From the NCBI GenBank assembly GCA_002708845.1, contig PAPI01000022.1, positions 248,001 through 312,000 on the forward strand: 64,000 nucleotides of DNA, read 5' to 3'. Positions 1,351-35,640 of this stretch are shown piece after piece. This DNA comes from Leeuwenhoekiella sp. Lineage in GTDB: Bacteria > Bacteroidota > Bacteroidia > Flavobacteriales > Flavobacteriaceae. The notes beneath the pieces are model-generated. The model had not been told where the DNA came from. It ran no database searches and was given only the letters and a program-made list of their open reading frames with translations. Numbering within the stretch: the first letter of the stretch is position 1; every line of letters begins with the position of its first letter. The position numbers and the translations under genes are program-made.

Positions 1351-1352
1351 TT

Positions 1353-1389
1353 AAAAACCCACACTTCAATCGAAATGTGGGTTTTTTAT
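1353..1389. terminator. Bidirectional rho-independent terminator
   Basis: AAAAACCCACA pairs with TGTGGGTTTTTT around a short loop. The stem is followed by T-runs on either strand, so it can end both the csaA-like transcript and the convergent DUF779 operon. Confidence 0.8.
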
Positions 1390-1404
1390 TGAGGTCTGTC
1401 TAAT

Positions 1405-1779: not shown

Positions 1780-1789
1780 AATTTGGTTT

Positions 1790-3313: not shown

Positions 3314-3389
3314 AAGATTTGTCTTTATTAAATTATACGTCTTTGTTTTGCTTTTGAAGTGGGGAAACTGCTGTAAGCTTTATGATATC

Positions 3390-3397
3390 TAAAGTTA
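3390..3397 (-). promoter_or_regulatory. Possible -7 box of the aldehyde dehydrogenase operon
   Basis: TAACTTTA on the minus strand resembles TAnnTTTG, but no TTG occurs at 19-21 nt upstream. The 271-bp gap between the divergent dehydrogenase and araC genes is where regulator binding would be expected. No clear operator repeat was picked out. Confidence 0.25.
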
Positions 3398-3584
3398 ACT
3401 AAGACCCCGGCCAAAGTGCTGACCGTTTCTATCAAATCAGTGAACTATTCTATTAATAATTAAGGATATGTAATTTTTTAGGCTCTAAAATTGTAAATTT
3501 AGTAAGCTAAAACCCGGTTATTGCGAATGCTTCAGTTGAAGTCCTAAGCATAGCATTTCTTTTAGCGGGCTGAAATATTGAATC

Positions 3585-4493
3585 ATGCAACTATCTGAAT
3601 CTTTTTATAAAAACCGAAAACTGGAGAATCTGGTAGAAAATCAGACTTCCTATACGTTGAATAATGCAGCAATGCATGTTTTTGAAACGCATCAGCAGGC
3701 AGAGCGTGTATTGCTGAGGTTTGACAAGCCGGTTTTGGCCAGTATGTTACGCGGAAAAAAAGTGATGCATCTGCGAGATCACAATAGCTTTGATTTTTTA
3801 CCAGGAGAGTCACTCATATTGCCTGCAGATGAATTGATGTGTATAGATTTTCCGGAAGCTCAGGGCGTAAATCCTACCCGTTGTCTGGCCATGGCTATCG
3901 CCGAGGATAAAATTAAACGCGTGGTGACCTTAATGAATGAAAACCTGACTAAAGATGACGGCAGCGAGTGGAGCCTGATGGATTATAATTTTCACTTCAC
4001 AAACGATGTGGGCATTTACCAGATCTTACAGCGTTTACTTTTCTTATTTACCGAAAACCATCCTTCTAAAGATTTCTTTGTAGATAATATGCTGCAGGAA
4101 CTCATCGTACGCATTTTGCAAACCAATAACCGAAAAATTTACACCGAGAAAACCTTTAAACTAAGTCCTGATAACCGCCTGTCATATATTATTGATTACA
4201 TCAGAGAACATATTCACGAACCCATTTCGGTAGAGCAATTAAGTCAAAAGGCCTGTATGAGTGAATCTAACTTTTATCGGGTTTTTAAAAATGAGTTGGG
4301 GGTCTCTCCGGTAGATTTTATCAATACCGAACGCATCAAGCTTGCGGTAAGTTTGTTGCAGGATCCCGACCGAAAAATCAAAAATGTGTATCTCGACTGT
4401 GGCTTTGAAAGCCGATCCTATTTTAACCGGGTGTTTAAGCGCATTAAGAATACTTCGCCGGGAGCCTTTCAGGCCAAAATGGCTACGCTTTAA
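3585..4493 (+). CDS. AraC-family regulator, likely of the aldehyde dehydrogenase operon
   Basis: The 302-residue protein has an N-terminal sensory half of the AraC_N type (residues ~1-190) and a C-terminal double helix-turn-helix (~200-300). The latter includes ISVEQLSQKACMSESNFYRVFK and the second-helix signature VYLDCGFESRSYFNRVFKR. It is transcribed away from the aldehyde dehydrogenase, and this divergent pairing is common for ExaC-type enzymes, so it probably senses an alcohol or aldehyde and activates that operon. This target is inferred from position. Its last four bases overlap the convergent SnoaL-like gene. Confidence 0.88.
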   Translation: MQLSESFYKNRKLENLVENQTSYTLNNAAMHVFETHQQAERVLLRFDKPVLASMLRGKKVMHLRDHNSFDFLPGESLILPADELMCIDFPEAQGVNPTRCLAMAIAEDKIKRVVTLMNENLTKDDGSEWSLMDYNFHFTNDVGIYQILQRLLFLFTENHPSKDFFVDNMLQELIVRILQTNNRKIYTEKTFKLSPDNRLSYIIDYIREHIHEPISVEQLSQKACMSESNFYRVFKNELGVSPVDFINTERIKLAVSLLQDPDRKIKNVYLDCGFESRSYFNRVFKRIKNTSPGAFQAKMATL

Positions 4494-4987
4494 ACCGGGT
4501 CTTCTTCCTCGATAATGCGCATGGCCCGCAGGTATTTAGAAAGGGCTGCGCTGCTTTGCTGCTGAATTTTAAGTTTTAAGAATTTGGTTTTACCTAAAAG
4601 CAATCCTTTAAATCCTAACGCCTGTCTCGCCCATTTACTCAGATCAAAATGGTCTGTATGTTGTAGAATCTTTCCATTTTGAAAGTAAAAGGTACCCACT
4701 ACGTGATTGACAACTTTGCGCTTTTCCGGACCAAATTTGTAAGTAGCCGTCCACTTTGCGCTGCCATTATAATCGTTTGCCTGAATGTCTGAGTAGGTCA
4801 CTTTAAGATCATCTCCCCCACGTTCTATTAGCATATACCACATCGCCCGGGCACGATCGCCTTTGATATTGCCAAAGGCAGGATCAGAAAATTCTACATT
4901 CTTATGATAACAATCTGCCATCTTACGCGGATTGTGATTTTGAAAGGCGCTGTAAAATTGTTTCAGGATTTCTTCGTTCGGATGCAT
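4490..4987 (-). CDS. SnoaL/NTF2-like protein
   Basis: This 165-residue protein starts MHPNEEILKQFYSAFQ. It has the alpha+beta pattern of the NTF2/SnoaL fold: a helix with FYSAFQNHNPRKMADCY, then FSDPAFGNIKG, and a C-terminal sheet with VVGTFYFQNGKILQHTDHFD. SnoaL-like proteins are cone-shaped pockets used either as enzymes on small hydrophobic substrates or as binding domains, and no specific reaction can be assigned. The C-terminal ~40 residues (GLLLGKTKFLKLKIQQ onward) are basic and lie outside the usual domain. It overlaps the convergent araC gene by 4 bp. Confidence 0.8.
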   Translation of the reverse strand: MHPNEEILKQFYSAFQNHNPRKMADCYHKNVEFSDPAFGNIKGDRARAMWYMLIERGGDDLKVTYSDIQANDYNGSAKWTATYKFGPEKRKVVNHVVGTFYFQNGKILQHTDHFDLSKWARQALGFKGLLLGKTKFLKLKIQQQSSAALSKYLRAMRIIEEEDPV

Positions 4988-5028
4988 AGCTTATTAACTG
5001 AAGTGGAAAGTTAGCCGTTTCCTGATTA

Positions 5029-5421
5029 TTATGCTCCAAATAAGGGTTTTAGTTTTTCCCTGCCTTCATAGAGCAGCCATAATTCAATGGCAAAGAACAC
5101 GAGCCCGATAATCAGTCCACTGGGTTCGTTTACAAGATGAACGAGCAGAATACCCACCATAATCGGGAATAGCATCAGAGCTCCCAGTGTACGTAGCGGC
5201 TTAAAAATTACAAGTACGCCGCCTATAATTTCAACAACGGCTACAAGAGGCATGAGCCAACCTATAGTTTCAAACGCACCCATAATTTCAAGCATTTCTG
5301 CGGGGATATCTTCGGGCATAGGCATATAGTTAAAGAGTTTATTGAGACCCGAATTGATGAACATCAGCCCAAATAGGATGCTGACGACAAGTATAATTTT
5401 AGTTTTCACGATAACAAACAT
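5029..5421 (-). CDS. DoxX-like integral membrane protein
   Basis: The 130 residues form four hydrophobic segments (about 8-25, 50-72, 78-98, 103-122). They carry the DoxX-type features FINSGLNKLF after the first segment and PLVAVVEIIGGVLVIF in the second. DoxX-like proteins are small inner-membrane proteins, some linked to terminal oxidases or thiosulfate:quinone oxidoreductase, but most flavobacterial copies are uncharacterised. It follows the SnoaL-like gene by 41 bp with the same orientation in reverse order, so co-transcription is possible. The fold class is clear and the role is unknown. Confidence 0.8.
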   Translation of the reverse strand: MFVIVKTKIILVVSILFGLMFINSGLNKLFNYMPMPEDIPAEMLEIMGAFETIGWLMPLVAVVEIIGGVLVIFKPLRTLGALMLFPIMVGILLVHLVNEPSGLIIGLVFFAIELWLLYEGREKLKPLFGA

Positions 5422-5583
5422 GGCTGGTTAGTTACTTGATTTACGTGCCGCTTGAGGTGGCTGAGTATAAAAGTATTGAAATTTCGGATTGAATTTTAAG
5501 TCTTCCTTAAGATTTTACAGGCGGTAATTTCGAGTGCATTTCTCTAAATTGAAGTGATTTTTTTAGAATTTCAATCGATGTAA

Positions 5584-5619
5584 ATAGGCATAAGCTATCA
5601 TTTTATAAATTGTATAGAT
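5584..5619 (+). promoter_or_regulatory. OxyR-like operator upstream of katG
   Basis: ATAG-N7-CTAT (5584-5598) matches the OxyR half-site pattern ATAGnTnnnAnCTAT except for one position. A second, weaker copy ATAA-N7-AGAT (5605-5619) follows with a 6-nt instead of 7-nt gap. It lies 71 bp before the katG start, a plausible place for a peroxide-responsive activator. Confidence 0.4.
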
Positions 5620-5680
5620 TGAGTTTATGATTTAAGCTCAATTTTAAATGGTTTCTTTATGCTGGAAAAATTTCACTTAA

Positions 5681-7936
<2,256 letters not shown>

Positions 7937-7959
7937 TAGGTTAGATTAATTATTGTTTG

Positions 7960-7987
7960 AAAGGCGGCCCGTTGTGGCCGCCTTTTC
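7960..7987 (+). terminator. Terminator of katG
   Basis: AAAGGCGGCC pairs perfectly with GGCCGCCTTT across a 6-nt loop and is followed by T-rich sequence. Confidence 0.85.
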
Positions 7988-8127
7988 CATTTTTTATTGC
8001 GCAGAACTAGTTTTCTTAAAATCCTTATGAATAATTAGATTTAAGTAAAACCTTTTACTTATTTGTAATTTTATAAGGTTAAGTTATTAACTTTCATTTA
8101 TTTTGCGTGCTTTAAACCCCAAATCAT

Positions 8128-9942
8128 ATGAATCTGAAATTACTTGTTCTTGTAGTATTGTTTAATATTGCTTGTTTCCATGCTCAGGTTGGTGTAGGTA
8201 CAACTGTTCCTAAATCCCGTTTGGAAGTCACCGCTGCAAATTCTGTTTCACCTGCTAGTACAGATGGTATTTTAATACCCAGATTAGATGTTTTTCCGGC
8301 TATCAATCCTGGAGCTGACCAGAACAGCATGCTCATTTTTTTAAATGTGGCTTCAGGCGGTAATCCTATAGGCTATTATTACTGGAGCAATCCTCAAACT
8401 AAATGGATTGGTCTTACTACCGGTCAGACGGGCTGGTCTCTTACTGGAAACACCGGAACTGCAGATGGCACCAATTTTTTAGGAACTACAGATAATGTCC
8501 CGCTTTCTTTTCGGGTAAATAATCAAAAGGCTGGCAGACTTTCCACATCCCAAACCTTCTATGGTTATCAGGCAGGTAATGCCAATACATCAGGTAATAA
8601 CAATGTCGCTTTTGGGTCACAGGCTTTATTTAATGCTACGAATTCAAACAGTACAGCGGTGGGTTATCAGGCTTTATATTCTTTAGTAACTGGAGGTCAA
8701 AATACAGCTTTAGGCTATGAGGCGCTGAGAAATGGGACGGGGAGTGATAATACAGCATTAGGGTATCACTCCCTTAGAAATGCAACAACAGCAAATTCAA
8801 ACACGGCAGTTGGTAGGGATGCGATGTATAATACTACCAGCGGGGATGAAAATGTGGCAGTGGGTAGAGATGCCTTACTTTCTAATACTAGCGGTAATGA
8901 AAACGTCGCTGTTGGAAGAGAAACCATGCGTCTAAATACGACTGGAAGCCAGAACACCGCAATCGGTAAGAATGCATTGGCTTCTAATACCACATCTATA
9001 CAAAATACAGCCGTGGGTAAAAATACTATGATTAACAATACAACAGGAGAGAAAAACACCGGTGTTGGTTCGGAAGCTTTGAATAACAATACTACTGGGA
9101 GTTACAATACGGCAATAGGATTTGCTTCGATGTATGACAGTCAGGGAGGAAATCGTAATACTGCCTTAGGATATGAGGCTTTACGAGATACCAAATCCGA
9201 AGGTAATGTTGCAGTCGGGTTTAATGCAATGCGAGGAAACAAAACAGGTAATTATAACGTTGCTATGGGTTATGAACCCCTAAATAGAAATACAAGCGGA
9301 CTTGAAAATATTGGGATTGGCCATAATACCTTGAACACGAATACAACAGGTAGTTATAATATTGCAATAGGTACCAATGCTTTAAATAACAATACTACGG
9401 GAAGCAATAATATATTTATAGGGAACGATGCTGACGCAACGGTCACAGGGTTGACTAATTCCATTGCTATAGGTTCTGGTGCTCGTGTTGGTGTAAGTAA
9501 TAAAATACGTATGGGTAACACCAACATTACCTCTTTTGAGTCACAGGTTGCCCTAACCGTTTCTTCAGATAAGCGATTTAAAGAACAAATAAAAACAATG
9601 CCTTTGGGTCTTGACTTTATAAATGCGATTAGGCCGGTAGAGTATGTGCGTAAAAATAATACCGAAGAAACTAAAGAGTGGGGAGTGATTGCTCAGGAAT
9701 TACTGCAAGTGCTTGAAAATGCGAAGTATGATAAAGCCGGTATAATTGCTGAAGATGGTTCTGAGGATCATTATCTTTCTGTAAGGTATTCTGATCTAAT
9801 TGCGCCAATTATCAAGGCTATTCAGGAATTGAGTGCAAAGGAAGCGGAACTCCAAGAGTTAAAAGCTCAGGTTAGCGAGCAGCAGGAATTGTTATCCAAT
9901 ATGCAATCGCGTATAGAGGCTTTAGAGCAAGGAAGCAAATAG
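8128..9942 (+). CDS. Secreted beta-roll repeat protein with S74 self-cleaving chaperone domain
   Basis: The 604 residues begin with a signal peptide (LLVLVVLFNIACFHAQ). A GVGTTVPKSRLEV segment typical of Bacteroidota surface proteins follows. Residues ~140-450 hold many ~15-20-residue repeats of the form NTAxGxxALxxNTTGxx, like YadA/Hia-type left-handed beta-roll heads. Near residue 479, SSDKRFKEQI starts a peptidase S74 (endosialidase chaperone) domain, which in phage tail fibres and related proteins trimerises the stalk and then cuts itself off before the Ser. A C-terminal coiled coil (AKEAELQELKAQVSEQ) completes it. Role inferred: trimeric surface fibre. No phage genes are nearby. Confidence 0.85.
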   Translation: MNLKLLVLVVLFNIACFHAQVGVGTTVPKSRLEVTAANSVSPASTDGILIPRLDVFPAINPGADQNSMLIFLNVASGGNPIGYYYWSNPQTKWIGLTTGQTGWSLTGNTGTADGTNFLGTTDNVPLSFRVNNQKAGRLSTSQTFYGYQAGNANTSGNNNVAFGSQALFNATNSNSTAVGYQALYSLVTGGQNTALGYEALRNGTGSDNTALGYHSLRNATTANSNTAVGRDAMYNTTSGDENVAVGRDALLSNTSGNENVAVGRETMRLNTTGSQNTAIGKNALASNTTSIQNTAVGKNTMINNTTGEKNTGVGSEALNNNTTGSYNTAIGFASMYDSQGGNRNTALGYEALRDTKSEGNVAVGFNAMRGNKTGNYNVAMGYEPLNRNTSGLENIGIGHNTLNTNTTGSYNIAIGTNALNNNTTGSNNIFIGNDADATVTGLTNSIAIGSGARVGVSNKIRMGNTNITSFESQVALTVSSDKRFKEQIKTMPLGLDFINAIRPVEYVRKNNTEETKEWGVIAQELLQVLENAKYDKAGIIAEDGSEDHYLSVRYSDLIAPIIKAIQELSAKEAELQELKAQVSEQQELLSNMQSRIEALEQGSK

Positions 9943-10002
9943 GTTTTAACGTACGATTAACGTTTATGCATAATCGTGATTTGTATCTTAAAATAAAAAG
10001 AT

Positions 10003-10152
10003 ATGAGTGATTTAAAACGAAAGAATCTGGTAGAACGTAATTTGGCTGATATGCACAGGGGTGAAGGAACTCATTTTACCGAGTCTCAACGTGCCTTAAA
10101 GAAAGCTAAGGAAGAAGAAAAAGAGAATATCAACGAGGAATTGAAAGAGTAA
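10003..10152 (+). CDS. Small charged protein, 49 residues
   Basis: ATG at 10003 opens a 49-codon frame starting MSDLKRKNLVERNLADMHRG and ending in an acidic, helical KKAKEEEKENINEELKE. Its own terminator-like hairpin lies 21 bp after the stop, and the preceding 60 bp are A+T-rich as in other start regions here, so I consider it a real gene. Such Lys/Glu-rich small proteins are common in Flavobacteriia. No function is known to me. Confidence 0.6.
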   Translation: MSDLKRKNLVERNLADMHRGEGTHFTESQRALKKAKEEEKENINEELKE

Positions 10153-10172
10153 AAGTTTTAATACTACAAGAG

Positions 10173-10199
10173 AAAGAATCCAATCGGGTTCTTTTTTTT
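10173..10199 (+). terminator. Terminator of the 49-residue gene
   Basis: AAAGAATCC pairs with GGGTTCTTT over a 4-nt loop and is followed by a run of eight T. Confidence 0.75.
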
Positions 10200-10206
10200 G
10201 ATATTT

Positions 10207-10272
10207 CTAAAGCAGAATTATCATTACGGAAATCAAAGTTAGTCCTATAATAAACTCACTTGCACGGACCAT
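10207..10272 (-). CDS. Possible 21-residue membrane peptide after rlmF
   Basis: One base after the rlmF stop codon an ATG at 10272 opens a 21-codon frame that starts MVRASEFIIGLTLISVMI and is almost wholly one hydrophobic segment. The tight spacing would allow translational coupling. It may be a true mini-protein, the remnant of a longer gene, or chance; conservation in relatives would decide. Confidence 0.25.
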   Translation of the reverse strand: MVRASEFIIGLTLISVMIILL

Positions 10273-10273
10273 T

Positions 10274-11203
10274 TTATCTAAAAGTCCAAGCAACAATACG
10301 ACTCGTTTTATTTCCGGTTCCCATCGGGATGGTTTTTACCGTTTTAGCGCCAGCTTTTTTGAGGTGTTTGTAAATGTCTTTTAAATAGTCTTTTTTAGAA
10401 ATCAGGGTAGTAAACCAAATACAATTACTAGCAAAATCCTTACTCTCTCGAATCATCGTTTTGATAAATTTAGGTTCCCCGCCGGCAGTGATGAGTTCGT
10501 TCTGAACTCCTGCAAAATTCAGATCAGGTTTCCCTGAGTTACTTCCCGAAAGATTTTTGACTTTTCTGCGGGTGCCTTGATTGGCAATATCCCGTGAGGC
10601 ATGAAATGGCGGGTTACACATCGTAAAACTGTATTGTTCTTCAGGATTGATTACGCCTTTAAAAATACTGCCGGAATCGCTTTGAAGTCGTAAATCTATT
10701 TTCTGCTGAAGGATTTCATTTGCGTTAATTATTTTTTCTGCGGATTCTAAAGATGTTGCATCAATATCGGAGGCTGTGAATGCCCAACCGTATTCTACTA
10801 CACCCAGAATGGGGTAAATCAAACTGGCTCCGGTGCCAATATCCAAACCTTTAATTTTGTCCCCTTTCAGAATTTTTCCGTTTGTGTTTGCAGCTAATAA
10901 ATCGGCTATATAATGCAGGTAGTCTGCTCTTCCTGGAATAGGCGGTACCAGATTGGCTTCCGGAAATTCCCAGTGTTCTATTCCGTAGTAAAAATTTAAA
11001 ATAGCTGTATTCAACAATTTAACCGACCGCGGATTCGCAAAATCAACCGATTGGTTTCCGTATTTATTGAGTTTTATATGGTTTTTGAGTTCGGGGTTGA
11101 CATCAATCAGTGCGTTTAAATCATAGGGCTCCCGATTGCGGTTGCGCGGGTGTAGTTTTGATTTGATCTGCTCTCTGGAATTTGTCTTTTTAGAAGAAGC
11201 CAT
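10274..11203 (-). CDS. rlmF: 23S rRNA (adenine-1618-N6)-methyltransferase RlmF
   Basis: The 309-residue enzyme carries the S-adenosylmethionine loop GLDIGTGASLIYPILG near residue 115 and the N6-adenine methyltransferase motif MCNPPFHAS near residue 195, which are diagnostic of RlmF. It methylates A1618 of 23S rRNA in the cytoplasm during ribosome assembly. A basic N-terminal tail (KKTNSREQIKSKLHPRN) fits RNA binding. It appears to be a single gene, 47 bp downstream of a same-strand dehydrogenase gene, with which it may share a transcript. Confidence 0.93.
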   Translation of the reverse strand: MASSKKTNSREQIKSKLHPRNRNREPYDLNALIDVNPELKNHIKLNKYGNQSVDFANPRSVKLLNTAILNFYYGIEHWEFPEANLVPPIPGRADYLHYIADLLAANTNGKILKGDKIKGLDIGTGASLIYPILGVVEYGWAFTASDIDATSLESAEKIINANEILQQKIDLRLQSDSGSIFKGVINPEEQYSFTMCNPPFHASRDIANQGTRRKVKNLSGSNSGKPDLNFAGVQNELITAGGEPKFIKTMIRESKDFASNCIWFTTLISKKDYLKDIYKHLKKAGAKTVKTIPMGTGNKTSRIVAWTFR

Positions 11204-11250
11204 TAACTGTTTCTCGTTTGATTTTTAGGCATCCTGGTAGTATACTGATA

Positions 11251-12243
11251 TTAAACCTCAACTTCATTCTCCAAAGCATTTCCTTCTTCAAAATCAGTGA
11301 GGTTTTTCAAGGTCACGTTAGCAATTTGCTCTAGAGCTTCTTTGGTGAAAAAGCCCTGGTGTCCGGTAATCAAAACATTGGGAAACGAGAGCAGGCGTAA
11401 AAAATCGTCATCCTGATTGACTGTTTCCGAATGGTCTTTAAAAAATAAGCCCGATTCCTGTTCATAGACATCAATTCCCAAATAACCCAGTTTTTCATTC
11501 TTTAATGCCGTAACCACTGCAGTAGTGTCGATCAAAGCGCCACGCCCGGTATTGATGAGCATTGCACCGGTTTTCATCTTTTCAAAAGCTTTGGTATCCA
11601 GAAGATGATGCGTTTGTTCATTTAGGGGACAATGCAAGGAGATGATATCTGCTTCAGAAAGCAATGCATCAAGCGCTTTATATTCAACCCCACGTTCTTT
11701 TAATTGGTCTGAAGGTTTAATGTCGTAAGCGATGACTTTACAGCCAAAACCCAGCATGATTTTAGCAAAGGCAATCCCGATAATTCCGGTACCGATTACG
11801 CCAACCGTTTTACCGGAAAGGTTGAAACCCGTAAGTCGCTCTAAAGAAAAATTATTTTCTCGAACCCGATTATAAGCCTTATGGGTTTTTCGGTTTAAGG
11901 TAAGAATCAATGCAACAGCGTGCTCTGCAACCGCTTCCGGGGAGTAGGCGGGCACTCGTACAATTTTGATGTTTTTTGATTCCGCAGCTTCGAGGTCAAC
12001 ATTATTAAAACCTGCGCAGCGCAAAGCGATTAATTTCACCTCATTTTCAGACAGTATCTGTATTGTTTCCTGATCAAGCTCATCATTGACAAAAACACAT
12101 ACCGCATCAAAACCCTGAGCCAATGATGCTGTATGCTTGTTCAAAGCGGTTTCAAAAAAATTGAGCTCGTGCGTGTTATTCGTATTGCACTGCTCAAAAA
12201 AATCCTGATCGTATTTTTTGGTACTGAAGAAGGCTACGCGCAT
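11251..12243 (-). CDS. D-2-hydroxyacid dehydrogenase (D-lactate dehydrogenase-like)
   Basis: This 330-residue NAD-dependent enzyme has the Rossmann motif GTGIIG at 151-156. Catalytic Arg234 lies in NTGRGALID, a Glu at ~263 in DVYEQE, and His295 in GHQGFF. These are the catalytic set of fermentative D-lactate dehydrogenases (LdhA type), and LRCAGFNNVDL near residue 75 also fits that branch. The expected reaction is reduction of pyruvate or a related 2-oxoacid in the cytoplasm. Because the family is broad, D-lactate specificity is likely but not proven. Confidence 0.88.
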   Translation of the reverse strand: MRVAFFSTKKYDQDFFEQCNTNNTHELNFFETALNKHTASLAQGFDAVCVFVNDELDQETIQILSENEVKLIALRCAGFNNVDLEAAESKNIKIVRVPAYSPEAVAEHAVALILTLNRKTHKAYNRVRENNFSLERLTGFNLSGKTVGVIGTGIIGIAFAKIMLGFGCKVIAYDIKPSDQLKERGVEYKALDALLSEADIISLHCPLNEQTHHLLDTKAFEKMKTGAMLINTGRGALIDTTAVVTALKNEKLGYLGIDVYEQESGLFFKDHSETVNQDDDFLRLLSFPNVLITGHQGFFTKEALEQIANVTLKNLTDFEEGNALENEVEV

Positions 12244-12350
12244 AGTGATTTGGCTTTAAGCTTAAAATTATTTCATTTTAACTTAACCAAGAGATTAATG
12301 AGGTCTAAATGTTGAAACGGCTTTTTAGTTTGAATAACATTAAGCTTTAA

Positions 12351-14891
12351 TTAATATCCTGCCAGGCTTCGCTTTAAATAGGGAGCTGTTTTACTTTTAG
12401 TATTTGCAGCTACAGTTTCCGGGGTTCCTGCACTTACGATTTGCCCACCTTCATTTCCTGCGTCGGGACCTATATCAATTACCCAGTCGCTTGCAGCGAT
12501 TACCTGCATATCGTGTTCTACCACAATCACAGTATTGCCCGCTTCCACAAGATTAGCCAGTTGTAATTGCAGCTTTTCAACATCAGAAGGATGCAGGCCG
12601 GTTGTGGGTTCGTCCAGAATATACAGCGTTTTACCCCTATTACCGCGTTGCAATTCTTTGGCGAGTTTAATACGCTGTGCTTCTCCTCCCGAAAGTTCGG
12701 TGGCGGGTTGCCCCAAACGTAAATAGCCCAGTCCTACTTCTTTAAGTAATTTGAGGGGTTTGCTTACACGAGAATCTGTTTCAAAAAACTTGACTGCCTG
12801 AGCTACTGTCATCTCAAGAACCTGAGCTATATTTTTAGAATTGTAGGTGACTTCTAAGGTTTCCTCATTATAGCGCATTCCATTACAAACGGGACACGGC
12901 GCATAAACGCTGGGCAGAAACAACAACTCGACCATCACCGCACCTTCACCTTCACAATTGGGACAACGGCCTTTTCCCACGTTAAATGAAAATCTTCCGG
13001 CCTTATACTTACGGGATTTTGCCAGTTCTGTTGCTGCAAATAATTTTCGCACCGTATCAAACAAGCCGGTATATGTGGCTAAATTAGATCGGGGCGTTCT
13101 ACCAATGGGTTTTTGATTGACCACCACCATACGCTTGAGGTCTTGGGCACCTTTTAAAATAGTTCCCGTAGTAGCTTCCGTGTTTTCTGACTGAAGTAAA
13201 TCTTCGGTTTCTTCCGCTTCTTCTTCAAGCGGGTTGCTTTTTAAATGAGCTTTCATGAGATCCACCAGCGCCTGACTCACCAAACTGCTTTTTCCGGATC
13301 CTGAAATGCCCGTTACACTAGTTAAAACTCCGAGAGGAAAACTAACATTAAGATCGTTCAGGTTGTTTCGGGTAATCCCGGAAAGCTCCAGCCAGGCTTT
13401 CGCCTCCCGGCGTACGGGTTTTTTAAGGCTGCGATCCTGAAACAAATGATCTTTGGTTTTTGAAGCGGTGCAGTCTTTTAAACCTTCCGGTGGACCGCTG
13501 TATAAGATTTGGCCACCACCTTCCCCAGCATCCGGACCCACATCGACCAGCCAGTCGGCCTGGCGTATTACTTCGAGTTCGTGTTCTACAATAAAGAGGG
13601 AATTTCCACCTTTCTTAAGCAAAGCCAAAGTACGCAGCAAAGCCTCGGTATCTGCCGGATGCAAACCTGCCGAGGGTTCGTCTAAAACATAAACCACCCC
13701 AAACAGGTTGCTGCGTACCTGAGTTGCGAGGCGTAAACGCTGATGTTCACCCGGCGAAAGACTCGGGGTATTACGCTCCAACGAAAGATAGCCCAATCCT
13801 AAATCAAGCAATACTTCGAGACGTCCCACAAAATCTTCGGCGATGCGCTGGGTGACCATTCTTTTTTCCTGCGAGACCGAATTTTTCTCAAATGCCGATG
13901 CAGTACCCGTGCTGTAAGGCACAAAAACTTCATACAATTTTTTTAGTGGAAGCTTTGAAATATCGGCGATGTCATAACCGGCAAAGGTGACCGAAAGGGA
14001 TTCCGGTTTTAAGCGTTTACCCTTACACGTGGGACAAGTACTGCCAGTCATATACTGCGCCACCCGTTTTTTCATGGCCGCACTGGGCGAATTGGCGTAG
14101 GTATGCAAAACATAACTTTTAGCGCTGGTATAGGTGCCTTTGTAGCTGGGTTGTTCGTTGCGTTTGACCGCTTCCTGAACCTCTTGCGGACTTCGGTCCC
14201 GATAAACCGGTACGGTTGGAGTTTCCTCAGTAAAAAGGATCCAGTTGCGCTGGCTTTGAGGCAGTTCACTCCATGGGATGTCTACATCGTAGCCTAAAGT
14301 CACCAGAATATCCCTAAGATTTTTTCCCTGCCAGGCTCTGGGCCAGGCGGCAATTGTCCGTTCGCGTATGCTTAAAGAAGGGTCGGGCACCAGGCTTTCT
14401 TCGGTTACGCTGTAGGTTTTGCCGAGTCCGTGACATTCGGGGCAGGCGCCTTCAGGGGTATTGGCTGAAAAAGAATCGGCATAGAGCAGGGGTTGACTGG
14501 CAGGATAATTTCCGGCTCTGGAGTAGAGCATGCGCATCAGGTTTGACAAGGTGGTTACCGAGCCTACTGTAGAACGCGCAGAACCTGAGCTTCGTTGTTG
14601 TTGTAAAGCCACGGCCGGTGGGAGCCCTGATATTTCATCAACTTCCGGAATAGGCATTTGGTTAAAAAGCCTACGGGCGTATGGCGATACCGATTCCAGA
14701 TAGCGGCGTTGGGCTTCGGCATATAAGGTGCCAAAAGCTAATGAGGATTTTCCAGAGCCGGATATCCCAGTAAAAACCACTAAAGCATCTCGCGGAATTT
14801 CAACAGACACATTTTTTAGATTATTCTGGCGTGCACCTTTTACCGACACAAAGCCGTTAAATTCCATTTCTTTTTCGTTCCTGTTTTGCAT
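12351..14891 (-). CDS. UvrA2-type excinuclease-like ABC ATPase
   Basis: Starting at ATG 14891 this is an 846-residue UvrA-family protein with two ABC ATPase halves. Walker [10 protein letters not shown] occurs near the N terminus and again near residue 535; signatures LSPGEHQRL and LSGGEAQRI and Walker B motifs are present. Zn-binding CxxC pairs are CPECHG, CPTCKG and CPNCEG...CPVCNG. The length is ~100 residues under canonical UvrA (~940), because the UvrB-binding insertion is reduced, as in UvrA2/DrrC proteins linked to resistance to DNA-binding drugs. A TTG at 14915 is an in-frame alternative start. It is not adjacent to other uvr genes. Confidence 0.88.
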
Positions 14892-28927: not shown

Positions 28928-29674
28928 CTATTTATTCTTGACATAAATATGCCTGATGTTGTTGTCCCCGGTTTCTTTTTCGGAAATCTCAAAGGTGTTG
29001 AGGTGTTTAATCAACGGAAAGAGTTTGGGGAACCCATAATTCCTGGGGTCGAAGTCTGTTTTTTTCTTGATGATGTAGTTGCCCAAAGTACCCAGAAACG
29101 CCCAGCCGTTTTCATCTGAAATCTCATCGATGCTTTCCCGTATAAGGGTGGTGAGTTCTTTATCAATTTTATTGACGCTTGAGCTCTCCGATTTGGTTTT
29201 TTGCTTGCTTTTGGTACTGCTGCTTTGAGGAGCGGGTGTTTCCTTTTTTAGAATTTCAATATAGATAAACTTATCGCAGGCGGTAATAAAGGGCTTAGGG
29301 GTTTTCTTTTCACCAAAACCCATAACAAACATGCCGGCTTCCCGCAGGCGTGTGGCCAAGCGGGTAAAGTCGCTGTCACTGGACACGATGCAAAAGCCGC
29401 TTACTTTTTTGGCATACAGCAGGTCCATCGCATCAATGATCAGGGCGCTGTCGCTTGAGTTCTTTCCTTGGGTATAACTGTACTGTTGTATGGGCGTGAT
29501 GGCGTTTTCGAGCAATACGTTTTTCCAGCCCGAAAGACTCGGCTTGGTCCAGTCGGCATAAATTCGTTTGATCGTGGGGTTGCCGTATTTGGCAATCTCA
29601 ACCAGCATCTCCCTTATGTTAGCGTAAGGCACATTATCTGCGTCTATTAAGACCGCAAGTTTATCATCTTTCAT
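28928..29674 (-). CDS. NYN-domain nuclease-like protein with OST-HTH/LOTUS domain
   Basis: The 248-residue protein begins with a NYN (LabA/DUF88) PIN-like domain. Acidic residues lie in AVLIDADNVPY (Asp10, Asp12), SSDSALIIDAMDLLY, and the signature CIVSSDSDFTRLATRLRE, which together form the metal site of a putative RNase. A Ser/Lys-rich linker (~150-170) leads to an OST-HTH/LOTUS domain (~175-248, EISDENGWAFLGTLGNYI) that binds RNA in other proteins. It is cytoplasmic. The target RNA is unknown. A TATCTTTA box lies on the minus strand at 29711-29718. Confidence 0.85.
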   Translation of the reverse strand: MKDDKLAVLIDADNVPYANIREMLVEIAKYGNPTIKRIYADWTKPSLSGWKNVLLENAITPIQQYSYTQGKNSSDSALIIDAMDLLYAKKVSGFCIVSSDSDFTRLATRLREAGMFVMGFGEKKTPKPFITACDKFIYIEILKKETPAPQSSSTKSKQKTKSESSSVNKIDKELTTLIRESIDEISDENGWAFLGTLGNYIIKKKTDFDPRNYGFPKLFPLIKHLNTFEISEKETGDNNIRHIYVKNK

Positions 29675-29748
29675 ACCGATTCTGGTTTTGGTGGGTAGAG
29701 GTGTCCCGATTAAAGATACGGGTAATCTTCCCGGAATTTAAAATCTAA

Positions 29749-30966
29749 TTAGTCCGCTGGCTGACTTTTTTTCTGCGCTTTGATGGGCATACTGAATGTA
29801 AACTCGGTCTGTTCCGCTGTTGATTCAACTTGCATAGTTCCGTTATGGGCTCTGGCGATTTCAGAACAGATATAGAGTCCCAGGCCTAATCCCGATTTGT
29901 TGTTGGTGGCATTGGTCGTAAAAAAGGGTTTAAACAACTCTGCTTTTTTAGCAGGCGGAATTTGAGGCCCAAAGTTAGAAACTGTTAAGTTAAACCAGCC
30001 GTCTTCTGTAATGGCAGCCATGCGTATGGGTTTGTCCGGGTCGCCGTGTTTGACGGCATTGCTTAACAGGTTAGACAACAGCTGACCCACCCGGTTGATG
30101 TCGCATTCAAAATCTTCTTTTAACTGAATTTGGGTCGTGATCTCGTGCTCCTGTTCAACGGTTGCAATTTCTTTACAAACCTGCAGAATTAATTTTTTAA
30201 GCGCCTGCTTATTGTTTGAAAGTTCAAGCCTGATGCCGTCACCCAGATGCCCTTTGGCAAAATCAAGCAGGTTGTCAATAAGTCCCTGCATACGGTAGGA
30301 CGTTGCTTTTATGGTACTGGCCTGGCGGTTGGCAAGTTCAGGAAGATCCATTTTAAGCAGGATGTCTGCACACATACGGGTAGTACCAACAGGATTTCTT
30401 AAGTCATGGCCCAAAACAGCGATAAAGGTTTCGCGTAACTCACCAATCGTTTTCTCTTTTTGCAGGTTCTGGTTAGATTGGTTTAATTCTTCAAGGGCAT
30501 CAATATGAAAAGAAATAAGCTGGGTGTAGAGTTCAAATAAATCGCGCACCTCCTTGGTATCGAGTTTGGCGGGTTTGGGGTCTATGGCGCAAAGGGTACC
30601 AAAGAATTCACCGTTTTTCCGAAAGATGGGAAAGGAAATATAACTCTGAAACCCGTATTGTGCCGGGGTAGGATGTTCACAAAATGTCGCATTTTTAGTT
30701 ACTTCTTCAATAATAACGGGAAGGGAATTTTGCCTGATTTCATTACAAATGGTGGTTTCGAGGACCAACTCATCACCGGTTTGAAGCCCGAATTCAATTT
30801 CGTCTTTAGACATACAGGTAATCCACCTTTCGTCGGTAACACGAGCGACTGCGGCAAAACGCATTCCGGTGGTTTGGCAAATGATATTTAAGATAGACGG
30901 TACGGCACTGATCTGCGTAATGGTGTGAATATCTTCCTGAAGGGATTGTGGTAATACGGTAGGCAT
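29749..30966 (-). CDS. Soluble GAF-domain sensor histidine kinase
   Basis: The 405 residues contain a GAF domain (~20-160, including RVTDERWITCMSKDEIEFGL and SYISFPIFRKNGEFFGTLCAI). A HisKA domain has the phospho-acceptor His in AVLGHDLRNPVG (~190), and a HATPase domain shows the N box QLLSNLLSNAVKHGD and G box GLGLGLYICSEIARAHNG. No transmembrane helix is present, so it senses a cytoplasmic signal. No response regulator is adjacent, so it is an orphan kinase whose partner cannot be assigned. The GAF ligand is unknown. Confidence 0.9.
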   Translation of the reverse strand: MPTVLPQSLQEDIHTITQISAVPSILNIICQTTGMRFAAVARVTDERWITCMSKDEIEFGLQTGDELVLETTICNEIRQNSLPVIIEEVTKNATFCEHPTPAQYGFQSYISFPIFRKNGEFFGTLCAIDPKPAKLDTKEVRDLFELYTQLISFHIDALEELNQSNQNLQKEKTIGELRETFIAVLGHDLRNPVGTTRMCADILLKMDLPELANRQASTIKATSYRMQGLIDNLLDFAKGHLGDGIRLELSNNKQALKKLILQVCKEIATVEQEHEITTQIQLKEDFECDINRVGQLLSNLLSNAVKHGDPDKPIRMAAITEDGWFNLTVSNFGPQIPPAKKAELFKPFFTTNATNNKSGLGLGLYICSEIARAHNGTMQVESTAEQTEFTFSMPIKAQKKSQPAD

Positions 30967-31313
30967 AAGCGGTTTCCAGGTCTTTTCTAATACGTATGCA
31001 TTGCAGATGTGAAAGATCTGGAGGCCTAAAACTTTTCTTAAAGCATCAGGGAATTTGCTCCAGATCGCGAACCGCGCGAACTCGTATTGTCAGATTATTG
31101 TTAAGCGTGTTACAGGTTGAAAGCAAGGATCATTGTTTCTTTTGGGAATACGTAAGACCGTTTTTCGGCTTTCGGGCTTAGGCTATATAGGGATAGCAGA
31201 TGTTTGCGTATTGCCTTCTAATTTTCAGACTCTCAAGTGGTAAAGTTACATAAAAAAACCAAGGGCGGAATAATCCCGTAAAAACAGGCTTTTTTTAAAG
31301 GAGATATGTTCAA
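30967..31313. other. Gene-free stretch with one spaced inverted repeat
   Basis: No gene is seen. GATCTGGAG at 31015-31023 is repeated inverted as CTCCAGATC at 31058-31066, followed by a palindromic TCGCGAACCGCGCGA stretch. It separates the core-like kinase gene from the A+T-rich island. Confidence 0.4.
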
Positions 31314-31847
31314 CTACTTTTGTTTAAACAGGACTTTTAGTTTGTCCCAAAAGCTTTTTTTCTTGTTTTCATACTTCTTTGTCGACGTTGGTCCAGTCGA
31401 ACTTGGTATTCTTTTTTTCTTTTGTTTCTCAAGTTCGCCTAGGAATTGGGGAGTGTCAGCAACAAGCATTTCTCTTGAGTATTTCATTTCGTCATCCAAA
31501 TAATAGATAAGTGCTTGTGCTTTGTCAATAAGTGCAATCGAAATGAGGCCAATACAGGCCCCTGCTGCGAAGTCTGCTCCCCAAACAAAAGATATTGCTA
31601 AGTCCTGATTCGTTAAGTCAGGCTTTATCCAATCACAGTCATTTGTTATTTCTGTTGGAGGGTCAAAATAAGTCTCGAAGAATGTTTCGTGTCCGTTTAT
31701 TGAACAAGATAGACCTTCAAGCTTTGTGATAGTTTCAGAGTCGTCCAGGATTCTAAAGTCATAACCAAGTCCTTGAATCAGCTCTTCAATTTCTGTTTTT
31801 GTTGGTATATCTGCCTTTCTAAGAAAAGCTGTTTGAGTCATTGACAT
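31314..31847 (-). CDS. Uncharacterised protein in the A+T-rich island
   Basis: This 177-residue soluble protein starts MSMTQTAFLRKADIPTKTEI. A conserved-looking core follows (ETYFDPPTEITNDCDWIKP, AISFVWGADFAAGACIGLIS, LIYYLDDEMKYSREMLVADT), and the tail is Lys-rich and low-complexity (KKKRIPSSTGPTSTKKYENK). The core pattern looks like one of the widespread small cassette-borne proteins, some of which act as immunity proteins, but I cannot name the family. It is the last of three same-strand A+T-rich genes and is preceded by hairpin repeat B. Confidence 0.65.
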   Translation of the reverse strand: MSMTQTAFLRKADIPTKTEIEELIQGLGYDFRILDDSETITKLEGLSCSINGHETFFETYFDPPTEITNDCDWIKPDLTNQDLAISFVWGADFAAGACIGLISIALIDKAQALIYYLDDEMKYSREMLVADTPQFLGELEKQKKKRIPSSTGPTSTKKYENKKKSFWDKLKVLFKQK

Positions 31848-31903
31848 TTCGTTCTTATCTTAAATATTGGCTAATACTTTTGCTTTACCTAGTGTCACCG
31901 GGC

Positions 31904-31938
31904 TGCCACCAGTCAGAGACTGGCGGTAGCGGGGGGTG
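31904..31938. repeat. Hairpin repeat B, copy 2
   Basis: TGCCACCAGTCAGAGACTGG and the following CGGTAGCGGGG match the copy at 25082-25116 at nearly every position. It lies between two genes of the A+T-rich island and is itself G+C-rich. Confidence 0.7.
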
Positions 31939-31972
31939 AACCGTTGTTGCCTTTAGTTGCGCTTGTTCTATT

Positions 31973-32671
31973 TTAATTTTTATTAAACTTAGTTTCTGGA
32001 AAAATTTTATCCTCAATTGAAATCATAAGTTCTAAAAGATATAAATATGTATTGTTTATATAATCTGCTAGTGGAATTGTTACAAACTCTAATGGATGAT
32101 TTTCTTTATTTTTGAATGTTTTCATTCCAGCCAATTCTTTATCAACTCTTCCTAAATGTTTTACTTTATTATTAAACTTTTGAAGTTCTAATACCTCATT
32201 ATACCTTTTAAATTCATCAATTTTTATATCAAAGTTTTTAAAATACTTTTTGCGTCTTTTCCAATCTGAAAATCCATCGCTTTCGTGATTGTTTTTTTCT
32301 TTTTCAATCAGATTTATTAATTTATTCTCAGCTTGTTCTAATAAAGCCCAAGTATATACAGAAGTAACTTGCTTAGAGAAACTTTGCATACTATTTAGTT
32401 TGTCACCTTGTTCATCTATCGCTTGATTTATTCTTAATAACCTATAATCCTCATCGTTCTGAACATCGGTTGGATAAGGATTTTTTTCAATTTCCTCTTG
32501 TAAGTATTCGTGTTTTTCTCTCATTGGAACTATTGAGAGGTTATATAAACTACAAAGATCTTCTAAAGCAAAGTTTATTTTAGTTAATACGCCTTTATCG
32601 AAGGGAAATTGAGTTTGTTGTAATTCTAGTTCTCTATTAAATTGGGGAGGTGTTAAAGATTCAAAAGACAT
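31973..32671 (-). CDS. All-helical protein, possibly HEPN-like, next to the Zn-hook ATPase
   Basis: The 232 residues are predicted almost wholly helical and highly charged, without a signal peptide. The segment VYTWALLEQAENKLINLIEK, followed after ~60 residues by LQKFNNKVKHLGRVDKELAG, resembles the helix layout of HEPN proteins. Their RNase motif is R(N/H/D)xxxH; here the motif-like NNKVKH has Asn in place of Arg, so it would be degenerate. This is an inference from shape and position. The gene lies 172 bp downstream of the RloC-like ATPase on the same strand. Confidence 0.6.
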   Translation of the reverse strand: MSFESLTPPQFNRELELQQTQFPFDKGVLTKINFALEDLCSLYNLSIVPMREKHEYLQEEIEKNPYPTDVQNDEDYRLLRINQAIDEQGDKLNSMQSFSKQVTSVYTWALLEQAENKLINLIEKEKNNHESDGFSDWKRRKKYFKNFDIKIDEFKRYNEVLELQKFNNKVKHLGRVDKELAGMKTFKNKENHPLEFVTIPLADYINNTYLYLLELMISIEDKIFPETKFNKN

Positions 32672-32843
32672 TTATTATATAGTTTGTTCTATTTCGCAAT
32701 TAAAAGTAACGTTTAGCATATGAAAAGAAGGCGATTTCGAAGGACAAAACTTTCGGTTAATCACAAACTTTGATTTGAACCAGAAGCCTTGATTTTACTA
32801 CTATTTTGCTTATTTTTTATATATATTGTCATGCTTTGTTATT
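32672..32843. repeat. Cassette-boundary-like sequence
   Basis: The gap contains GTAACGTTTAGCATATG (32706-32722) and CGGTTAATCACAAACTTTG (32754-32772). From memory these two phrases recur together as borders of single-gene inserts in many Flavobacteriia. Related fragments occur at 35489-35520 (GCATAACGTACATACAACAC), 28139-28162 (CAACACAACGTAAATATAAC) and 27500-27525. No gene is in it. Confidence 0.4.
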
Positions 32844-35462
32844 TTATCTTCGTCTTCTTATTGTTTTAATGTAATCTTCCAATACAGTCAAGTCAGCAAG
32901 AAATTCAGCAGAGTCTGGCATTTCTTCTATTAAAGTTCCTGCTGTATCGTGACCCGTGAAATAAGTAGAACACTTGCTCATATTCGCATCAACAATATTA
33001 TAATCATCATCAGTTAAGTCAACAATTTTTGATAAGCGTTGAGTTTGTATTGCTCTACCAAATCTTTGAATTGCTCCGTTTAAAAACACCTCTTCAATAA
33101 AACGCTCCCAAGTTTCTCGAAGTTTACCATACAACATTTTTGCCCTCTCTTTGTAAACCTCTTCGGTTTCAGTTCGTTCGATTTTCTCTAATTTTTGATA
33201 AGCGTCTTTTAATAAGCCAATACGTTTGCCGACTGGCAAAGCATCCCAAGGTGGATTGCTTGCAATCAGTCCTGTTTCTTTTCTCTTTCTTGTTAAGCTC
33301 TTTATATCTAAATCACAATTTAAACTTTTAGAATGTTCCTGAATCATAAGTAGAAAAGTAATGTCGTGAGTAAAAACAATAACCTGTCGCTCTAGAGCTT
33401 CTTCTGCAATCCTTTTTGATATTTTACTTCTCCATTTATGGTCAAGAGATGAAACTGGGTCATCAAAAATTATAGCACTTTTATGCTCTGAAATGGATAA
33501 TTCAGATAGGAATGTTGCTAAGGAAATACACCTATGTTCTCCTTCACTTAAAACGTCTTTTAGTGCAATTCCATTTGAGTTCTGTTCATCAAGTCGTAAG
33601 TAGTGATATTGTTTCCCTCTTTGTCCTTTTGTTTCGGTTTCTATCTTGATGTTTTTAAATCCTAGTTTGGTAAGTTCTGCTTTGAAATTCTGTTTAAGGT
33701 TTTGACTTATGTAATTTGTTGCTAAATCATTACTAAGGGTAGTAATGGTGCGAGTATTACATTTACTAATGCACTGATTTAGAAGTTTTATCTTTTTTTG
33801 TCGATAAATTTCACGAGCTAACTTGGGTTTATAATCAAAAATCTTTTTTTCTCCCTTTAATTGATTTACTTCCTTGTTTAGCGGTCTTAAATCTTCTTCA
33901 ATTGATTGGACTGCTAACTTTTTATTTGCTTCTTTTAAGTCTTTAATGAGGTTTTGTATTTGAGTTTTAGGTGTATTCTCAATTTCAATTGAATTAATAG
34001 ATTCAACAGATTTTTTAGAATTAAAAAGCCCAACTAAATAGTCCTTCTGTTTAGAAAGTGACTCTAAATATTTCGTTTGATTTTCCGAGTATTCATCAAT
34101 CAGTTCATCTAACTCAATTGTTGTAGGCTTTTGTTCTTCAAAAGAAAAATCCTGACTATTTAAATTTTCATATTCTAAATCAAATTTATCAGAAGCTTCA
34201 TCAAAAGATTTTTGAATATCATTTTTCACAAAATCTTCAAAAGCATTAAATCTGCTTTTTGCATCTTCCCCTAAATCTTGAAAACAAAGAGGGCAATTGC
34301 TCTCTCCATTTATTTTTGGAAAATCTTCTGTCTCGGTACTTTCGTTATAGAACTTGCGAGCACTTTCCCAAAGTAATTTCCAAGAACTATTACCAACGCC
34401 CTCAATAGGTAATTCAGAGAATGCCTTTTCAGAAGATTCTTTAAGTGCTTTACTTGTCGTTGCAAGATTATTTATTATTTGTTTTAGGTCCTCTAATTTT
34501 GTCCCTGTTAAGTTGTTCTCGAGTGTTTGTAATTTGTTTTGTAAAATCTCAAATCGCTTTATCTTATCGATGTTTTCTTTTAAGATTTTCTTAGGGTCGG
34601 TTGCTTTTAATTTATCTATTTGTTTGGTTAGCTCTTCAATTCTAGAATTTTTGGTTTCATTCCAAATTGCTTCTGCTCTTAATTCGTTAAGTGTAGTTTC
34701 CGAATTTAAATTGTTGAGAAATGTTTTAGCAGTCGAACAATCTGAAACTTCTATAAGAGTATGGTCAAATTTCTCTAATGCAGGTTCTGAAAATTCCGCA
34801 TTTAGTTCATTGTCAACTTTTTTTATACAATCTGCTAATTTTTCTACAATAGATAGCCCTTGAGGTATAAAGGCTATTTCATCTTCTCCTTCAATGTAAT
34901 GATTTGCACTAAACGTATCGAAAACATCAATACTTTTTAAAACAGAGTCGCTTACTACTTCATTTATAAGATTTACTGTGTTGAAATTTACTCCATCAAT
35001 TGTATATTCAATATCCGCTTTTTTATCATTTCCAAAACAAGTTGGGTCATATAGATTGTCATTTATTTTCGGCTTACTTCCTCTAGTATTACAAGCGTGT
35101 TTTAAAATACTAACATAGCTTGATTTTCCTGAACCATTATCTCCATAAACAAGGGTAAGTCCGTTTGAGGCAAATTCTAATTCACTGGTATGTGAGAGTG
35201 CGTTTATGTTGTTTACATTGGAAATTTTTGAAAGTATTATATCCTCAGTACTTGTTGAGTTATTTGCGAACTCTCTTAAATTATCAAAATCCACTTCGTT
35301 AAAATCAAAGTCTGATAAGCCATAATCTACCTTACAGATTTCCTTTAGTTCCGAAATATCATTATCCGTTAGTTCATTGTTTCTGATTAAACGGTCAACG
35401 GCGATTTGCCAAAAAATAGGTTTGTTTTCCACCCAATCAATTATATCATTTAGTATCGGCAT
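32844..35462 (-). CDS. RloC/PrrC-like Zn-hook ABC ATPase, candidate defence protein
   Basis: The 872-residue protein has Walker A GDNGSGKS at 107-114, then long coiled coils flanking a Rad50-type zinc hook CPLC (Cys390, Cys393). The ABC signature LSEGEHRCISLATF lies near 630, Walker B AIIFDDPVSSLDH near 660 and an H-loop VIVFTHDITFLL. This is the AAA_13 architecture of RloC, whose C-terminal anticodon nuclease cuts tRNA when phage is sensed. The ~150-residue C-terminal region here has Arg782-x3-Glu786 and His838, reminiscent of the R-x3-E...H nuclease triad, but spacing differs and activity is unproven. Base composition is low (33% G+C at 34501-34560). Confidence 0.75.
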   Translation of the reverse strand: MPILNDIIDWVENKPIFWQIAVDRLIRNNELTDNDISELKEICKVDYGLSDFDFNEVDFDNLREFANNSTSTEDIILSKISNVNNINALSHTSELEFASNGLTLVYGDNGSGKSSYVSILKHACNTRGSKPKINDNLYDPTCFGNDKKADIEYTIDGVNFNTVNLINEVVSDSVLKSIDVFDTFSANHYIEGEDEIAFIPQGLSIVEKLADCIKKVDNELNAEFSEPALEKFDHTLIEVSDCSTAKTFLNNLNSETTLNELRAEAIWNETKNSRIEELTKQIDKLKATDPKKILKENIDKIKRFEILQNKLQTLENNLTGTKLEDLKQIINNLATTSKALKESSEKAFSELPIEGVGNSSWKLLWESARKFYNESTETEDFPKINGESNCPLCFQDLGEDAKSRFNAFEDFVKNDIQKSFDEASDKFDLEYENLNSQDFSFEEQKPTTIELDELIDEYSENQTKYLESLSKQKDYLVGLFNSKKSVESINSIEIENTPKTQIQNLIKDLKEANKKLAVQSIEEDLRPLNKEVNQLKGEKKIFDYKPKLAREIYRQKKIKLLNQCISKCNTRTITTLSNDLATNYISQNLKQNFKAELTKLGFKNIKIETETKGQRGKQYHYLRLDEQNSNGIALKDVLSEGEHRCISLATFLSELSISEHKSAIIFDDPVSSLDHKWRSKISKRIAEEALERQVIVFTHDITFLLMIQEHSKSLNCDLDIKSLTRKRKETGLIASNPPWDALPVGKRIGLLKDAYQKLEKIERTETEEVYKERAKMLYGKLRETWERFIEEVFLNGAIQRFGRAIQTQRLSKIVDLTDDDYNIVDANMSKCSTYFTGHDTAGTLIEEMPDSAEFLADLTVLEDYIKTIRRRR

Positions 35463-35640
35463 TATTTAGATTTAACGGTTGTTTTTTAATAAAGCATAAC
35501 GTACATACAACACAACCAGTTGTGTTATATCTATTATATTTAAATGTTTACAAGCGTTTGCAGACACTTTATAAACCTTTGATCAACTAAATATAGTTCT
35601 TTCCGTTTAGAGCGTTTTACGGTATTCCTCAAAACCATAA

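Follow-up and report, generated by a model that had tools for sequence, protein, structure and literature searches.

The window analysed here is a stretch of 64,000 nucleotides from Leeuwenhoekiella sp. (contig PAPI01000022.1, positions 248,001 to 312,000), and the question it raises is what is encoded by the gene for an 872-residue zinc-hook ATPase in its A+T-rich island, and how that gene came to be there. We suggest that the gene encodes a stand-alone, long-form anticodon nuclease of the RloC kind and that it is carried as an integron-type cassette. We hold this joint reading with reasonable, not strong, confidence, because the window has a flawed core bracket and the signature is missing from several relatives. 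That the protein is of RloC type is, taken by itself and judged from its sequence, highly probable. What we describe would probably be a known effector in a little-studied variant, with a cassette as its vehicle.

The hooked ATPase and its C-terminal domain

The features of the protein are:
32844–35462, minus strand: gene for the putative RloC-type protein, 872 amino acids (open reading frame list, PADLOC candidate PDC-S06 and predicted structure)
34284–34295, minus strand: zinc hook CPLC, residues 390–393
32847–33251, minus strand: C-terminal helical domain, residues 738–872, with Arg782, Glu786 and His838

As the first-pass annotation stated, three open reading frames lie on the minus strand, encoding 872, 232 and 177 amino acids, and the motifs of the longest are all at the positions it had noted: Walker A (G107–S114), CPLC (390–393), LSEGE (638–642), DDP-SSLD (667–674) and His699. 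The ABC ATPase set is complete (Walker A, signature, Walker B/D-loop and His switch), and the CXXC hook of C390 and C393 lies within a coiled-coil insert whose helices are predicted between residues 201 and 599. Examination of 103 homologous loci (80 genomic and 23 of 55 viral) gave 102 open reading frames, and the 93 of at least 840 amino acids were aligned with that of the window, leaving out the nine shorter ones. In this full-length alignment of 94 sequences, G107, K113, C390, C393, D667, D668, D674, H699, R782, E786, R800 and H838 are identical throughout, and E640 is identical in 93. The conservation of the motif residues exceeds chance, and it takes in Arg782, Glu786 and His838, which had been proposed at just these positions as a nuclease triad. 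The structure model of the whole protein has a mean predicted local distance difference test score (pLDDT) of 87.2 and a predicted template modelling score (pTM) of 0.61; the C-terminal domain modelled separately reaches 92.5 and 0.87. By its sequence, the protein joins an ATPase of the Rad50/SMC kind, whose coiled coil bears a zinc hook, to a small, predicted helical domain that bears the triad.

This architecture resembles that of the RloCs of Geobacillus kaustophilus and Acinetobacter baylyi, which are described as ABC ATPases split by a coiled coil with a CXXC hook, with a C-terminal R-X3-E-Xn-H, and as seldom linked to restriction–modification (R-M) systems (PMC2610378, PMC3874168). The RloC-defining paper gives Arg-X3-Glu-X36-52-His and a size of 658–897 amino acids, and reports that mutation proves the triad essential in the G. 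kaustophilus protein and that hook mutants are hyperactive (PMC2610378). In ATPase motifs, coiled-coil CXXC hook, triad and size, the protein of the window agrees with the published description, which bears out the earlier proposal of an RloC-type architecture. The suggestion that its long Glu-His gap marks a distinct effector has to be given up, because the gap here is X51 and falls inside the published X36-52. The gap is 48–52 residues in the alignment of 94, and 36–41 in 17 of the 18 canonical RloC-like proteins that passed the pattern (47 in the other; a nineteenth, L274, was a mis-hit). PrrC-profile proteins have 31–35 in 14 of 15, these 15 being the open reading frames that the pattern gave in 18 loci (L240 was a mis-hit by pattern).

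PrrC itself was considered as an identity and rejected. It shares an ABC ATPase and an R-X3-E...H nuclease domain with the protein of the window, but PrrC-profile proteins have 357–416 amino acids and no CXXC (15 of 18 loci), and PrrC is invariably tied to a type Ic R-M system, as the introduction of PMC2610378 states. The hook, the length of 872 residues, the spacing and the lack of an adjoining R-M system exclude it; the adjoining genes are thioredoxin-like, histidine kinase and NYN by Pfam, with a gpmI-like open reading frame named by eye.

The scan for defence systems that the first-pass annotation had proposed returned the PADLOC candidate PDC-S06, whose model PDLC04891 aligned along the full length with 1034.6 bits. 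Canonical RloC-like proteins match the sister models PDLC04890 and PDLC04886. PDC-S06 is a computational candidate, listed in PMC11811056 among the systems that DefenseFinder names differently, and our results would place it among the RloC-type anticodon nucleases. Pfam finds only generic ABC-type ATPase families in the protein, and no NCBIfam model matches it at the model cut-off. No non-nuclease family was matched by the C-terminal domain, which has no Pfam match at E 1; solved structures, searched with its sequence profile, yielded nothing relevant.

Probable transfer, insertion site and proposed cassette boundaries

The first-pass annotation took a sharp contrast in composition as a sign of transfer. 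The contrast stands against the near flanks: 1-kb segments starting at 31.5–34.5 kb have a G+C fraction of 0.29–0.33, versus 0.44–0.48 (and one of 0.395) for starts at 35.5–39.5 kb and 0.44–0.45 at 29.0–30.0 kb. It is weaker against the region at 20–28.5 kb, where G+C is just 0.35–0.43 and the difference from the island is therefore smaller. The genes for 872, 232 and 177 amino acids have 0.32, 0.27 and 0.38. Low G+C, together with absence of the gene from 12 of 12 same-genus relatives, does argue for lateral acquisition. The protein was found in 4 of 60 genomes, its own included (none of 12 in the genus, none of 24 in the family, 3 of 23 in the order), and profile matches in 14 of 395 genomes of the phylum, again with its own. 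Among the best 80 of 560 confirmed loci in named genomes, identities are 95% (Flavobacteriaceae), 84%, 76% (Kaistella), 65%, 59% and 52%, and below these 27–34% in Pseudomonadota, Planctomycetota, Bacillota and others. Homologues are thus scattered rather than confined to core, syntenic positions. Plasmids gave 268 matching records; in 164 of them a single place matches 80% or more of the query. No match to the ATPase was found in 50,697 phage records and nothing in a single-protein viral scan; with a profile, 55 loci on viral contigs were detected, and the match exceeds 700 residues in 21.

The boundaries of the inserted DNA are marked by these features:
31279–35494, no strand: segment missing at the same place in the relative G009 (blastn breakpoints)
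35498–35528, minus strand: palindromic, attI-like site upstream of the gene
35493–35500, minus strand: core site GTTATGCT, putative cassette start
32828–32835, minus strand: inverse core AGCATGAC, differing at one base from the core's complement
32702–32835, minus strand: decayed attC-like element right after the stop codon (model R1, 22.6 bits)

An integron cassette starts with a GTT core and ends with the complement of that core. The window and the 95%-identical copy (L093) have a sole DNA match, from 35502 to 32820, and its limits fall 2 bases before the core and 8 after the inverse core. The bracket GTTATGCT...AGCATAAC encloses the RloC gene as an exact 8-mer in L093 and with one mismatch in the window. 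Array genes in G001, G002, G008 and G010 have an exact 7-mer bracket in 9 of 14 cases, and an 8-mer bracket with one mismatch in two more. None of the thioredoxin-like, gpmI-like, histidine kinase and NYN genes of the window, nor the genes for 232 and 177 amino acids, has an exact bracket.

A covariance model was built from 14 of 16 elements; it comprises 12 pairs, with 91.6% of the cells paired and nine pairs changed on both sides. Its covariation is 0.539, versus 0.140 when shuffled (none of 500 shuffles reached it) and no more than 0.115 on sliding, for a structure derived from the very alignment that was scored. The search with the attC model R1 covered 37 sources. After the RloC gene of L093 it finds an element at E 1.8e-12 with L093 left out of the model, and in L096 an attC-like element stands directly before RloC. 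Apart from the element after the RloC gene, the sole R1 match in the 64-kb window at E 10 or below has E 0.65, and in the nine loci taken as controls (L090, L091 and seven plasmid loci) the only match has E 0.84. Across 74 further homologue loci, all nine matches at E 1 or below are in L104. This locus (Cyclobacteriaceae) is an array with its nine attC-like sites at 926–12557, and an RloC of 32% identity lies within it. Rfam gave no match at gathering score in five loci.

The insertion site can be compared among relatives. Upstream lie the gpmI-like and thioredoxin-like genes, which stand together in 11 of 11 same-genus loci having the thioredoxin-like gene; the twelfth same-genus relative has no match. 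The left border is common to the window, G002, G003, G004 and G009 up to the palindrome, and what follows the pair differs among these five; in more distant relatives the genes past the pair are partly common to one another. In G009, about 1.6 kb takes the place of 31279–35494, after which the next genes of the window (histidine kinase and NYN) follow at 92% DNA identity. These genes, NYN-LOTUS and GAF-histidine kinase, occupy 28928–30966 of the window. The thioredoxin-like gene has only 71–76% protein identity versus that 92%, which hints at recombination.

The palindrome occurs in 11 copies in 6 of the 13 genomes of the genus, and a reversed control pattern in none. In G001, G002 and G003, a copy lies 17–19 bases past the stop of an integrase-like recombinase of 375, 248 and 270 amino acids, and in G008 a different palindrome occupies the same spot after the recombinase. 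Of the related recombinases of G001, G008, G010 and G011, two score above the cut-off for NF040815 (site-specific tyrosine recombinase/integron integrase), but TIGR02249 is not matched at its cut-off by any, and scores with the XerC and XerD models are only a little lower. Four loci of the genus (L302, L303, L304 and L306) show an integrase-like recombinase (375 amino acids; shorter in L303 and L304) directly before a palindrome, and then low-G+C genes, mostly on one strand and co-directional with it. The window's own genome holds two palindromes. The second of them, at 5668–5698 on the minus strand of L309 (G000:C27:1-9000), is followed by seven attC-like matches with E 1e-22 to 2e-4; by its sites, this locus is an array of cassettes.

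The likeness to an integron would lie in the core/inverse-core bracket, the folded attC-like site and same-strand genes behind an integrase-like open reading frame. Beyond the recombinase scores, the system differs in that the palindrome lies downstream of a co-directional recombinase, none such being found in the window's genome. From the boundaries and the comparison with relatives we infer that the gene would move as one cassette, by recombination of the palindromic attI-like site with attC-like sites, that it may have been captured downstream of the gpmI–thioredoxin-like pair, and that the integrase would be lost, or unassembled, in the window's genome.

The segment may instead have entered as an ordinary island insertion, by homologous recombination or an insertion sequence, which we judge unlikely but worth serious weight. 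Such an event would suit the IS3-type transposase relic (read by eye) at the same place in G009, as well as the weak attC-like element in the window and the lack of a G001-like integrase, but the breakpoints fall at core sites, and G003 and G004 have strong attC matches at this same place (E 5e-13 and E 2e-21, the latter in the model). The observations that weigh against a cassette are as follows. The attC-like element of the window is weak (E 0.0035 over the 37 sources, 0.0004 in the window alone), and its bracket has a mismatch; when its flanks were shuffled 5000 times, 141 trials contained an exact 7-mer, a control that covers the exact form only. Five other genes of L093 and the RloC genes of L094 to L098 have no exact bracket, L094, L095, L097 and L098 have no attC match at E 1, and L104 and L096 have a second open reading frame before the next site downstream. 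In the window's own draft genome, none of 10 matches at E 1e-10 is an integrase like that of G001, the best piece scoring 84.4 bits versus 125.9 for G001. What casts most doubt on the vehicle is that the window and L093 have unlike attC-like DNA behind the gene, though a cassette should carry its own.

Beyond the window, a broader reading is plausible, though a little less likely than not: in Flavobacteriaceae and other Bacteroidota, a palindromic attachment site and a co-directional recombinase of the Xer/IntI kind may form an integron-like system for gene capture, one that would stock and exchange stand-alone anti-phage genes, long-form RloC included. The present case suggests that in Bacteroidota single genes may move via integron-like sites, and, if confirmed, cassette sites would be a place to seek defence genes in this phylum. 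Vibrio and mobile integrons carry defence genes. In the open-licence literature, we found no paper that examines the long clade, or defence genes borne on cassettes in Bacteroidota, and papers on integrons with phage defence or on Bacteroidota named no such case.

The long-form clade and its putative target

What sets the window's group apart is a domain at the N-terminus:
35238–35462, minus strand: N-terminal helical domain, residues 1–75, in the long clade only (fetched loci and a scan of 247 genomes)

These ~75 additional residues have Trp10 in 91 of 94 sequences and Trp17 in 87 (Phe17 in the window). Among the fetched loci the domain is confined to the long clade or to RloC fragments of it, and 9 of 247 genomes of the phylum have it, counting the window's own, always within a long-clade gene or a short piece of one. 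Some full-length relatives that have the C-terminal domain, or a trace of that domain (L003, L013, L016 and L017), have no match to the N-terminal one. The window's copy has no Pfam match, and no PDB match at E 1; DUF6493 matched the domain in 2 of 29 members (best E 0.00016). Kinship with PtuA was considered, on matches in 5 of 29 members (best E 0.0021, at positions 167–215 of a 239-position model), and judged to be chance. The domain is a candidate sensor or regulator.

In a quick tree of 66 rows, made without bootstrap and with warnings for long branches and composition, the Shimodaira–Hasegawa-like approximate likelihood ratio test (SH-aLRT) gives 99 for the long forms, 68 for the canonical forms and 100 for PrrC. 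From the position of their hooks, and from the X40 of G. kaustophilus versus X51 here, neither of the two RloCs studied biochemically appears to belong to the long clade. The window's protein further differs from them in its longer N-terminus, in a hook at 390 rather than 288 or 314, in Gly-His instead of Ser-His and in the clade-specific Arg800. A widespread long-form clade is indicated, whose function is tested in no paper that we found; PMC12322248 marks RloC as not tested.

Function and trigger are carried over from the studied relatives by analogy. The hooked ATPase would hold the nuclease silent; DNA ends arising from phage attack or genotoxic stress could alter the state of head and hook, and the C-terminal domain would then cleave tRNA anticodons and halt translation. 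The same ATPase could instead control a HEPN-type RNase that cuts mRNA, rRNA or another part of tRNA, triggered by DNA ends or another phage cue. We consider this improbable, and somewhat more so than an ordinary insertion of the segment. It would fit the separation of the long clade from the canonical forms, the divergence of the nuclease domain, Arg800 in all 94 sequences, and hooks that lie nearer the N-terminus in the studied RloCs (C288/C291; C314) than in full-length long-clade rows (371–401). Set against it are the same triad with a spacing in the published range, the same hook and the same ATPase.

Several results nevertheless count against an anticodon nuclease of the RloC kind. PF13166, which fits canonical RloC forms, has no match at E 1 in the 872-residue protein, and the residue preceding the His is Ser in only one of 94 sequences, where published RloCs often have Ser (PMC2610378). 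Compared by hhalign with canonical RloC, the nuclease domain can hardly be recognised (E 0.017, probability 2.7%); compared with PrrC it gives E 1.9e-7, in an alignment that takes in the D-loop region. In structure comparison the best Z, 8.1, is to unrelated bundles, from which the HEPN match of the domain could not be told apart. As to a role in defence, RloC correlated with susceptibility to phages instead of resistance in one Pseudomonas set, according to PMC12447246, which calls its function unknown.

Neighbouring genes

Two genes follow the ATPase gene on the same strand:
31973–32671, minus strand: second gene, 232 amino acids, HEPN-like at best (PADLOC RTasHEPN, E 0.011)
31314–31847, minus strand: third gene, 177 amino acids, with no family found in Pfam, PADLOC and NCBIfam scans

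It is very improbable that the three form one system in which the second (HEPN-like) or third gene acts on the ATPase as toxin, antitoxin or regulator. They share one strand and one inserted segment, and the second has its weak RTasHEPN match, but an attC-like remnant separates it from the ATPase gene, and the intergenic gaps are 172 and 125 bp. Conservation of the three-gene neighbourhood, which the first-pass annotation had proposed to check, was not seen: by tblastn (E 1e-4) neither gene has a match in 135 ATPase loci, the 95, 84 and 76% identical copies included. These loci are 80 genomic and 55 viral, of which about 32 viral ones match a short ATPase stretch only and some reach contig ends. 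An earlier set of 44 loci matched the two genes nowhere but in the window itself, and a three-gene operon is rejected on both sets. For the second gene, 295 other genomes gave two weak matches, plasmids one and phages none; the third has none in 59 other genomes or in plasmids. The two genes are independent neighbours, not conserved partners, and the second is possibly a separate HEPN-like protein. By eye, it has an NNxxKH motif in common with two distant proteins (L058 and L092).

The genes beside the homologues vary. Of 97 same-strand neighbours, 92 were scanned; four match type I specificity subunits in PADLOC, and the 25 commonest Pfam families, counted without a control set, include four ResIII, three HSDR_N, three N6_Mtase and one RhuM. 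The Moellerella copy is located between hsdS and hsdR. A DNA repair or SbcC-like protein, in place of a nuclease effector, is the least probable account: the Rad50/SMC-like head and zinc hook would suit it, but the additional C-terminal domain with its invariant Arg/Glu/His triad, the patchy distribution in genus and family and this hsd-linked copy do not. The Shewanella copy precedes dsr1. In the Kaistella locus (L095, 7624–8649), a gene read by eye as RhuM begins one base past the RloC stop and is followed by a gene that looks, by eye, helicase-like.

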